Source: Collinsella aerofaciens
GTDB lineage: Bacteria; Actinomycetota; Coriobacteriia; Coriobacteriales; Coriobacteriaceae
NCBI RefSeq assembly: GCF_901212495.1
Contig: NZ_CAAKNY010000070.1
Span: 1-40,388 of the forward strand
Direction: 5' to 3'
DNA length: 40,388 bases
Positions 17,385-21,159 of the stretch are shown here, piece after piece. The notes under the pieces were generated by a model. That model made no database searches and was not told the origin of the DNA. It saw only the letters and a list, made by a program, of their open reading frames with translations. Position numbers and translations under genes: made by a program. The number at the start of each line of letters is the position of its first letter. Within the stretch, counting starts at the first letter, position 1.

Positions 17385-20300
17385 CTACATCTGCTTGCGA
17401 CGACGATCACCCAGCGTCACGCCCGCGGCCACGAGCGTAATACCGCCGATAACGAAGACCTCGCCCGCAAGCGCGGAGTCATCACCGGTCTGGGCAAGTG
17501 CTCCCGACTCAGCCTTCTTCTTGGCGGCAGGGGCCTTGGCGACAGGAGCCTTTGCGGCAGCCTGCGCAACCTGAGGCTTGGCCTGCGGCTCAGCCTTGGG
17601 ATGATACTTGTCGTACTCGGCCTGCGCGGCAGCAAGGGCATCCTTGGCATCGCCAAACTCGGCAAGCGCGGCGGCATAGGCGTCGTTGGCGTCGGACAGC
17701 TTGGCATCGGCATCGCTCAGGGCAGCCTTGAGACCAGCGGCGGCATCGACGGCAGCCTTATAGCGAGCGTAGGCGGCGTTCAGCTTGACCAACTTCTCGT
17801 TGCCCGTCGTGCCCGCGGCAAGGGAGGCCTTGTGGTCGACGGCCTCAAGATCGGCCTTGAGTGCCTCGTCGTTGGCAAGCTCGGCCTTGGCCTTGACGAT
17901 CTCGAGGTTCGCATCGACGACGGCCTCGTTGGCGGCCTCGAGCTGTTTCTGGGCATCGGCGACACCGGCGACGGCAGCGTCATAGGCGGCCTTGGCGTCG
18001 TCGACCGCCTTCTGGGCGCCGGCGAAGCGCTCGAAGGCCTTGTTTGTGCCGGCCAGCTCGCCCTCGGCAGCCTTGGCCTTGGCCTGCGCGTCGGACACAG
18101 CCTGCGCCTTGGCGGCAACTGCCTGCTTGGCGTCCGAAAGAGCGGTTGCGGCCTGGACATCTGCGGCCTGGGCCTTGTCTACACCATCCTGGGCGATGTC
18201 GTCGGCCTTCTTGGCCTTGTCAAGGGCGCCCTGCTTGTTCGTAAGGTCCGTCTTGGCAGCATCACGCTTGGCGGTAAGGTCCTTGACCGAAGCGGTGGCA
18301 TCGTCATAGGCCTTATTGGCCTTGTCGGACTTTGCCTTGGCGGCATCGCGGGCGCTGCGAGCCTTTGCCTTGCGAGCAGCGGCCTCTGCCGCCTTCGTCT
18401 TGCTGTCGGCCAACGTGGCATTTGCCTTATCGAGAGCCGCCTGGGCAGTAGCCGCCTTGCTCTTGGCGGCATCGAGCTTGGCCTGAGGCGTCATGACATC
18501 GATGCCCTTAAGCTCGGCTTCGGCAGCGTCATAGGCGGACTTGGCGGCAGCAGTAGCGGACTGAGCCTTCTCGTATTCGCCCTTGGCGGTGTTCATATCC
18601 GTGTCGGCCGCGGTATAGGCGTCTTGCGCGTCCTTCTGATTATTGAGAGCGGCGAGATATGCCGTATCGGCCGTGCCCAGCGTCTTCTGCGCCTGGGCGA
18701 GCTTGCCCTGAAGCTGCTTCAGCTGTTCCTTCTGCTCCTGCGTGCCGCCTGCGTTGTAGGCGGAATCGATGTAGTCGTTGACGAGCTTCTTGAACTCGGA
18801 GACAGTGAAATCAGCCTGAGTGTCATCAGCGCTGTAATCGAAGATGGTTACCTCGGAATCGGTGTTCTTACCGCTACCGGTCGCGATGCCGATAGCCTTC
18901 ATACCGGCATCGATGATGTTGAGATAGTGCCCGCACTCATGGTAGATGCTGTTGTAGTGCTGGTAGATATAGTAGGAATCATATCGATGGCTTCCAAGTG
19001 CGTCGCCATACTGCGCGACGTACTTATCGAATGCCTCCTTCTCCTGGGTATAGAGGCCGGTGTAGGGCCAGCCGAGGGTATCCTCGGTCTCGCCACCGGT
19101 GTATGCGCCGCCTCCGCCGGCAAGATTTTCACCGTTATCCCAGTAACAGCCCGAGTGTCCCCAGATGTTCGATGAATATGATGTATTAAGGGCGGCTGCC
19201 ACAGTCATGCGGAGGCTGACGCTGAGCGCCGACTGACCGTTCGCCTTGCGGAGGTTGTTCTGGGTGTCGAGATATGTCAGGGCGTTGCGCATCTGCTCCA
19301 GGGAAAGCGGGTTGGTGTCGCGAGACATGTCCTGATCGACGTACTTGTCATACCATTCGGCCTTGTCATCGGCGCCGGTCAATGTCGATACGGCATCCTG
19401 GGCGTTCTTTTTCTGCGTGGCCGTGAACTGGCTGCCGCCGATGATGTAGTTCATGAAGCCGAACATACCCTGGCTGATGACATTCTGGTCTACGGTCATG
19501 TTTGACTTGAGGTCGGCAATCTGCTGGTTAAGCTTGTCGACCTCGGCGTTCGCGGCATCGTATGCCTTCTTGGCGGTATCGGATGCGGCGCATGCCGTCT
19601 CCCACTCGCTGTGCTTCTGCTTGCGAACCTCGACGAGCCGGTCGTACTCGGCCTTCTTGTCGCCCTCGGTCTGCTGCGCTTGCTCGTATGCGGTCTTAGC
19701 GGTGGTGTACTTGCCGGTCGCATCGCTGAGCTTCGCGTTCGCCTCGTCGTATGCAGCCTGCGCGGAGGACACAGCAGTATTGGCGGAGTTGACACGCTCC
19801 TGAGCAGCAGGAACGGCAGCCTGGGCGTTTTTGAGATTTGACTGTGCGGTAGCGTCGGCAGCAGTCGCGGCGTCAAGGGCGCTCTGCGCGGTAGCAAGCT
19901 CGTTGGCGGCGGTGTTCTTAGCAGCCTCGAGCGCATCCAGATCGACACCCGTGCCAGAAGTAGCGGCATCGAGCGCGGCCTGCGCCTGATCCAGCTTCTG
20001 CTGGGCGTTGTCACGTGCGGTGGTTGCAGTAGCGAGGGCAGCGGCGGTCTGCTGTTTCTTTGCCTGAGCGGATGTCAGAGCAGACTCGGCATCCCTCTTT
20101 GCCTGCTCAGCATTGGCGGCGGCGGTCTTAGCGGCATCGAGCTCACCCTCGGCAGTCTTCACATCGGCGTTCGCTGCATCGAATTTTGCCCGCGCGTCCT
20201 CGACGGCCTTCTTGGCGGCCTCGTATTTATCCATGCCCATGGCCTCGAGCTTGGCCTCGGCGTCATCGAGGGCTTTCTTAGCTTCGTCGCGCTTTGTGTT

Positions 20301-20854
20301 GGCATCCTTGAGCGCCTGGGTCTTGTCATCGACCCTCTTATTGGCCTGATCGAGCTGGTCGTTCAGGTCGCCCAGCTTCTTTTGCTGTTGCTCGGCCTTG
20401 TCGACGGCCGCCTTAAGCTCGTCGATCTTCTCCTGAAGCGCGGCGACTTCTGCCGCGTTCTGCTCGGCCGTGTTGTCGCTCAGGGCCTTAGTAGCATGGT
20501 CTCTGTGCTGCTGGGCCTGCTGCTGAGATTGAGCCGCGGCATCAACCTTCTTCTGGGCGGCATCGTAGGCCGTCTGAGCGTCCTTGAGCTGCTTTGCCGA
20601 CTCCTCCGCCAGCTGGGCAGCCGTCTTTGCGACCGCTTGGTTACCGGCGGCAACGGTGTTCTCTACAGAACTACCCCCCCCTGAACAGAATCGCCGTTAT
20701 CGGTTGACGGTGCGGCGATTGCCGCCAGCGGCGACATGAGCGGCTGAGCGATGAGGCCCGCCGTCAAAACGGTTGCGACGGCATGGTTAGCAACGCCCTT
20801 GACGTTGACGGCCTTTGCCCGAGGCTCAAAGTGTTGTGGACTGTAGTTTGCCAT
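17385..20854 (-). CDS. sortase-anchored coiled-coil surface protein with CAP-like domain; frame broken at a G8 tract
   Basis: Giant surface protein, about 1156 residues once one base is added at the G8 run (20674-20681). As written, the N-terminal frame (ATG 20854, AAGGGAG upstream) ends after 63 residues at 20663, and the rest is in another frame. Order: signal peptide ending about SPLAAIAA; Ala/Lys/Asp-rich heptads (coiled coil) to about residue 450; a CAP/SCP-like globular region (about 450-720) with LRKANGQSAL, SNIWGHSGCYWDNGENLAG and IYHECGHYLNIID; a second long coiled coil; a Pro/Ala/Lys wall-spanning segment; and a C-terminal LAQTGD sorting signal with hydrophobic helix and RRRKQM tail. 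The layout resembles SEC10/PgrA surface-exclusion-type adhesins (family knowledge). The break may be real phase-OFF, a mutation or an assembly error. Confidence 0.85.
20674..20681 (-). repeat. G8 homopolymer at the frame break
   Basis: Eight G (minus strand) 58-60 codons after the start of the surface-protein gene. With nine or six G the signal-peptide frame would join the 1090-residue downstream frame; with eight it meets TAG at 20663-20665. Classic position for slipped-strand phase variation. Confidence 0.8.
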
Positions 20855-21159
20855 GGCTTTCTCCCTTTGACACGGATGTATCCATACGCATCAAAATGTA
20901 GGAGCTGATTTTTGAATTCTGTTGCGCAACATTGGTCACCGGCGAAGTTTTTGAAACTAACACCTCATGACATCACAATTTCGACACATATGAGGGCGTT
21001 CGTAAATCATATTTTCATGAGGCAGCGTCCAGTTTGCCATGTACGCTTGTTCTTACGTCATCCGCCCTGCCAGCCGGCATCCAACTAGCACCCCGCCCGC
21101 CACGGTGTAGAGTAAGGGCGACGGGCGGGATATGCGGCCCGTGCCAGAATGGGGTAAAC
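20855..21159. other. divergent intergenic region, surface protein / DUF389 gene
   Basis: 305 bases without a gene. Contains the TGTTGCGCAACA palindrome (20920-20931). Near the DUF389 gene, an 8-bp inverted repeat CCCGCCCG / CGGGCGGG (21092-21099 with 21122-21129) lies about 30-70 nt before its ATG. The middle is AT-richer than its surroundings, as expected for promoters, but no clear -35/-10 pair was identified. Confidence 0.5.
20920..20931. promoter_or_regulatory. candidate operator TGTTGCGCAACA
   Basis: Perfect 12-bp palindrome about 66 nt upstream of the surface-protein start. Together with its right flank it matches 16 of 18 positions of the site at 4634-4651. Confidence 0.5.

Follow-up and report, generated by a model that had tools for sequence, protein, structure and literature searches.

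A surface protein gene of Collinsella aerofaciens, a common human gut bacterium, carries behind its export-signal codons a run of eight G's which looks like a reversible on/off switch, and slipped-strand phase variation, with this gene as one locus of a set, is the best and probably the correct explanation of what is observed. The gene is situated in a stretch of 40,388 nucleotides that was analyzed as a whole and is referred to as the window. As a contingency locus the gene would be controlled by slippage of the DNA polymerase on the G-run: nine G's would place the leader and the remainder of the gene in register, generating one exported protein of ≈1,150 residues, in which coiled-coil-like arms surround a CAP domain; eight or ten G's would lead to a stop after ≈60 codons and to the lack of a surface protein, and the window assembly would then have caught the off state. 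We infer that these lengths interchange inside one population, that replication slippage is the cause of the change in length, and that the on/off state matters for contact with a host, phage or neighbour.

The reading frames are arranged as the earlier, sequence-only reading had claimed, with a leader frame that meets eight G's and ends at a TAG and a remainder of 1,090 codons that is open in another frame, and both elements were confirmed on the sequence (Table 1). On the minus strand, the leader starts at an ATG (20854-20852) with AAGGGAG upstream, and is followed by CAG, the eight G's (20681-20674), GTAGTTCTG and the TAG (20665-20663), while the remainder is open from 20657 to its stop (17385-17387). 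The associated frame arithmetic, according to which nine G's restore a single protein, holds for natural copies, since nine-G relatives are in frame (in L002 as a single open frame of 1,151 codons) and eight- and ten-G copies are out of frame.

Table 1 Features of the proposed switch gene in the window (positions count from the first letter of the window)
Feature	Position	Strand	Basis
Shine-Dalgarno-like AAGGGAG	20861..20867	-	by eye; same motif in aligned relatives
Leader ORF, ATG to TAG, 63 codons, with export signal, ending just past the G-run	20663..20854	-	sequence
Export signal-like leader MANYSPQ...AAIAA	20711..20854	-	translation judged by eye
G8 tract, proposed switch	20674..20681	-	sequence; relatives have 8, 9 or 10 G at this codon
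TAG at which the leader frame ends when the run is eight G	20663..20665	-	sequence
Off-frame remainder, 1,090 codons and stop	17385..20657	-	sequence, domain search, selection analysis
CAP domain (PF00188) at remainder residues 463-608	18834..19271	-	34.1 bits, cut-off 21.1
Cell-wall-sorting-like tail LAQTG...RRRKQM	17388..17498	-	by eye

The tract is the sole run of at least six G's or C's in the whole window. The notion that a G8 string is improbable by composition was nevertheless rejected, because one such string per 40 kb is ordinary in dinucleotide shuffles of the window (one observed versus 1.36 expected, with at least one in 59 of 100 shuffles). What stands above chance is the presence of the tract at the same codon in relatives, its variation in length there, and the occurrence of a like arrangement in other gene families.

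The remainder is alanine-rich, and arms that appear coiled-coil-like by eye flank a domain which passes the Pfam gathering score of the CAP superfamily. The label of a sortase-anchored protein given in the sequence-only reading is based on the C-terminal tail, which, as judged by eye, consists of LAQTG (LAxTG being a sortase motif), a hydrophobic stretch and RRRKQM, and which was without a match among the anchor models of Pfam and NCBIfam. The best NCBIfam match of the remainder is SEC10/PgrA surface exclusion (TIGR04320) at 69.9 bits, which narrowly misses the cut-off of 70, so that the protein was not filed in that family; the in-frame orthologue L002 scores 47.9 bits against the same model, and the likeness does not imply a function.

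A survey of 43 genomes of the genus retrieved some match in 23 and an orthologue at 66-85% identity in 12, with internal stops in none of these 12 orthologues, and named records of a second collection (ten loci, two of them new) assign these relatives to the Collinsella aerofaciens group, class Coriobacteriia. Counting each contig once (L031, L032, L034 and L036-L040 represent the same contigs as loci already counted), and omitting L007 with an insertion at the tract and L012 without a tract, 13 uninterrupted copies including the window are available. The run comprises eight G's in one of these (the window), nine in ten (L001-L006, L008, L010, L033 and L035) and ten in two (L009 and L011), and the nine-G copies alone are in frame; since the compared genomes are mostly one per species, some of these lengths could be fixed differences. 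In L007 (genome G025) nine G's are followed by an inserted IS110-family element, and in L012 the position is occupied by other in-frame codons. The remainders of L011, with its ten G's, and of the tract-less L012 are separated by a dS of merely 0.10, which suggests that leader and tract may have been exchanged between lineages by recombination. In 18 loci of the genus that represent distant paralogues (L013-L030), G- or C-runs of seven or longer are absent apart from a G34 in L029, which is located near a contig end and was taken as an artefact rather than a real tract. Three assemblies (G032, G033 and G034) each contain hundreds of overlapping G9 matches, probably being sequencing artefacts.

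The off-frame remainder is under purifying selection. Compared with 14 orthologues at a dS of 0.44-0.84, its dN/dS amounts to 0.18-0.27, and all 1,090 codons are still open at a dS of 0.44-0.54 from the 12 closer orthologues. The window alone shows 47 synonymous and 46 non-synonymous changes, corresponding to a private pN/pS of 0.25, which exceeds that of 8 of the 12 other aligned rows, yet is far below one, leaving room for a mild recent relaxation of selection in the window copy. With a pN/pS far below one and a dN/dS of ≈0.2, the off-frame part has therefore been in use for most of its history. Regarding the tract itself, glycine is seldom encoded by GGG, which accounts for 33 of 516 glycine codons in ten window ORFs and is fixed in none of the 36 all-glycine columns of the remainder (13 rows); the tract, by contrast, stays all G in the 13 uninterrupted copies. 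The glycine-codon and private-change analyses omit L011 and L012. Because 157 of 379 fourfold columns show no change at the third base, the keeping of two or three GGG codons is weak to modest evidence when taken by itself.

A mix of 7, 8 and 9 G's among reads or strains, combined with intact downstream codons, had been put forward beforehand as the test of poly-G phase variation, and the lengths of eight, nine and ten G's in relatives together with purifying selection on the remainder support that reading. The two outcomes named as refuting it were also looked for in relatives, where the copies are not all of nine G's and the downstream codons are undecayed. As in slipped-strand genes, a homopolymer in the 5' coding part sets the frame, on and off lengths both occur among relatives, and the codons of the off copies are intact.

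Truncated forms are also represented in a public protein set, from which the 63-residue truncated leader, used as the query, retrieved 62 clusters. When sorted by hand, five of these clusters with 678 member sequences are truncated leaders of the G8 type, defined as an in-frame leader ending in G followed by VVL (P0121, P0127, P0135, P0141 and P0147), this and all other member counts being derived from overlapping assemblies and not representing numbers of strains. Eight clusters with 286 member sequences were assigned by hand to the G10 type, defined as ending in GGG (P0125, P0137, P0142, P0146, P0148, P0153, P0161 and P0163), an assignment to be read with the caveats that the leader end differs in P0146 and P0161 (STLGGG), that P0148 and P0153 look garbled, and that some may be contig ends. 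A stricter scripted sort resulted in four clusters of the G8 type and five of the G10 type (one ending in GG), and seven clusters ending in GGVVL after an upstream frameshift were left uncounted. The 58-residue leader of P0125 (G10 type, two members) is identical to that of 11 of 16 in-frame clusters. The in-frame search generated 23 matches, and in all 16 of those with a readable tract the sequence GGG-SS corresponds to nine G's. A protein search performed with the in-frame protein contained no match longer than 825 residues among the best 120 of 178, and for this reason no on/off ratio was drawn from it.

The same locus can also be interrupted at its tract by an insertion. In G025 an insertion of ≈1.5 kb directly behind the G-tract (L041, G025:C1:312000-331500) encodes an IS110-type transposase, whose domains (DEDD_Tnp_IS110, 105.7 bits; Transposase_20, 70.8 bits) assign the element to the IS110 family. 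In all 16 copies of its subfamily that were retrieved from five genomes (L229-L244), five to nine G's are situated directly before the left end; the insertion sites differ with the exception of one repeated pair, and the right end is AATGGG in each of the 13 copies in which it is readable (three unread). Other elements sharing the first 21 bases of the left end have at most three G's before it at 11 of the 21 distinct places read, and the G-run preference therefore belongs to the G025-type subfamily. Part of the G's at the left end could belong to the element itself. A G-run as target is plausible considering that IS110 elements pick their targets via a bridge RNA (PMC11208160).

The left end of this element, read in two frames behind the leader, accounts for 133 member sequences in 11 of the 62 truncated clusters, and other truncated clusters contain frameshifts in the signal region. 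Together with the insertion in the G025 tract, these forms favour recurrent loss in place of an evolved switch: the protein would at times be a liability, for example as a phage receptor or antibody target, and the run would be neutral and simply the easiest point at which to break the gene, equivalent to IS insertions and other frameshifts. This account is considered unlikely, as a run of rare codons has been kept at a dS of ≈0.5, the same placement is found in unrelated families, and the remainder is subject to purifying selection.

RNA polymerase, too, can slip on G-runs, and its slippage or ribosomal frameshifting might yield some full protein at any DNA length, in which case the tract would set a level of protein and not act as a switch. 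This is considered quite improbable, the differences in tract length among relatives being indicative of slippage at the DNA level, though either process could act in addition. An error of sequencing or assembly confined to the window is very unlikely: G-runs are hard to count, as discussed in PMC9187656, and some assemblies do miscount them (G032-G034, and the G34 of L029), but ten G's are present in two other genomes with SPAdes-style contig names (L038 and L039, on the same contigs as L009 and L011), and truncated ORFs of the eight-G type comprise the 678 member sequences given above; such an error would alter the state of the window alone and leave the case for a switch unaffected. That the window lineage contains a young pseudogene with a fixed frameshift, as its comparatively high private pN/pS might indicate, is highly improbable in view of 1,090 open codons at the distance of the 12 closer orthologues, a dN/dS of ≈0.2, and the tract as the sole lesion seen.

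Slipped-strand phase variation as the preferred explanation is accompanied by a poly-G arrangement that is wider than the sequence-only reading saw, since several other genes of the genus carry tracts. The near-complete genome G002 (three contigs) has eight distinct runs of nine or more G's, seven of which are at gene starts, namely those of the CAP-domain surface gene, of two further genes designated B and C, of two Flp-like pilins, of a Bac_transf sugar transferase (PF02397) and of brxA (PF08849), the exception away from a gene start being L078. G003 (one contig) also contains eight distinct runs of this length, with three at gene starts (the CAP-domain surface gene, B and brxA); the remaining five are L079 and L082, plus L080, L083 and L084 without a recognised gene start. 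The run of L082 is inside an uncharacterised 215-residue ORF upstream of rpsL, and L079 represents a DUF1919 gene with ten G's near its 3' end, where the other frame runs on for ≈30 codons and the tract might vary the C-terminus. G008 has at least six runs besides that of the CAP-domain surface gene, and the six that were read correspond to B, C, brxA and three without a recognised gene start. Two places in two genomes (L083 and L088) have a non-coding sequence in common, in which TACGATATCTGAGC is preceded by a run of 11 or 9 G's.

Variation in length was found in six families including the CAP-domain surface gene. The leaders of B (MKANSDK) and C (MRRTFMML) are both exported-looking, and the naming of B, C and the pilins is based on inspection by eye and on weak or no Pfam matches. 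Gene B was matched in 22 genomes, 10 of which showed a tract, with none seen in the other 12. The B tract consists of nine G's in seven genomes, where the gene is in frame, and of eight in two and ten in one, where it is split; the B copies of G012 were missed by the start pattern and their split state is derived from a separate search, and copies L103-L105 were traced as far as the locus end. Gene C was found in four genomes, being open with nine G's in one, and meeting a stop after 28 codons with ten G's in three. The Flp-like pilins (L145-L174) have eight G's once, nine G's nine times, ten G's four times and eleven G's once, and are without a tract in 4 of 19 places. In many pilins ATGCATG precedes the tract and provides two ATG codons four bases apart, in two frames, and with this arrangement either of two tract lengths may be productive. 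The sugar transferase has one tract of nine and one of ten G's, 11 of 13 loci being without a tract.

The tract at brxA (L128-L134 and L142-L144) comprises nine G's in four and ten G's in three of seven Collinsella genomes. The identity of BrxA was established for the G003 copy by PF08849 (113.7 bits) and the PADLOC BrxA model (95.7 bits), and among seven more distant brxA-like matches L135 and L136 were without a tract on reading. Although brxA was at first viewed as frame-switched, the run may be situated immediately before a GTG start and may thereby affect initiation instead of the frame. A phase-variable phage defence is thus a possible role of this tract. Tentatively, and with some doubt, the surface proteins, Flp-type pilins, exopolysaccharide-type sugar transferase and brxA could constitute a genus-level set of poly-G switches, accompanied by an IS110-family element aimed at G-runs for which the tracts would double as landing sites, thereby providing a second and slower silencing of the same genes. 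Differences between strains are often scored as the presence or absence of genes. If G-runs do act as switches for surface proteins, pilins, sugar transfer and phage defence, two cells of identical gene content may present themselves differently to a host, a phage or their neighbours, and one state alone would be recorded in an assembly.

No such switch is reported within the titles and abstract beginnings of the open-licence literature on phase variation in Collinsella, C. aerofaciens or Coriobacteriia and on homopolymers in Collinsella. The system is of a known kind, for which no report was found in the class Coriobacteriia with regard to a chromosomal surface gene; in Eggerthella prophages, phase variation is described as involving recombinases and retroelements (PMC8778435). 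The homopolymer contingency loci of Neisseria, Campylobacter and Bordetella are alike in that variation of surface genes is driven by homopolymers, and unlike in that they belong to Gram-negative pathogens in which slippage has been shown. In pglX of Streptomyces coelicolor (phage growth limitation, BREX-related), a change in length of a G-tract of about eight switches the gene (PMC4365076), and phase variation of PglX is also noted in PMC9122589. The brxA tract of nine or ten G's is comparable, with the difference that the pglX tract is inside a methyltransferase gene (PMC4365076), whereas the brxA run is at the gene start and may affect initiation. The gut-actinobacterial precedent, which had been left unnamed at the outset, is the pilus switch of Bifidobacterium, a member of another class (PMC9187656). 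In the sortase-dependent pilus genes bbr_0113 and bbr_1889 of Bifidobacterium breve UCC2003, a G-tract switch is likewise located between an ORF with a secretion signal and an LPXTG-type remainder, its length sets the frame, the host is likewise a gut actinobacterium, the switch is present in several species of the genus, and the in-frame length is reported to be selected in the gut (PMC9187656). The B. breve genes specify a pilin heading a pilus operon, for which switching was shown by maximum-depth sequencing and microscopy (PMC9187656), whereas the Collinsella gene specifies a CAP-domain, coiled-coil-like protein in the class Coriobacteriia that is known here from its sequence.
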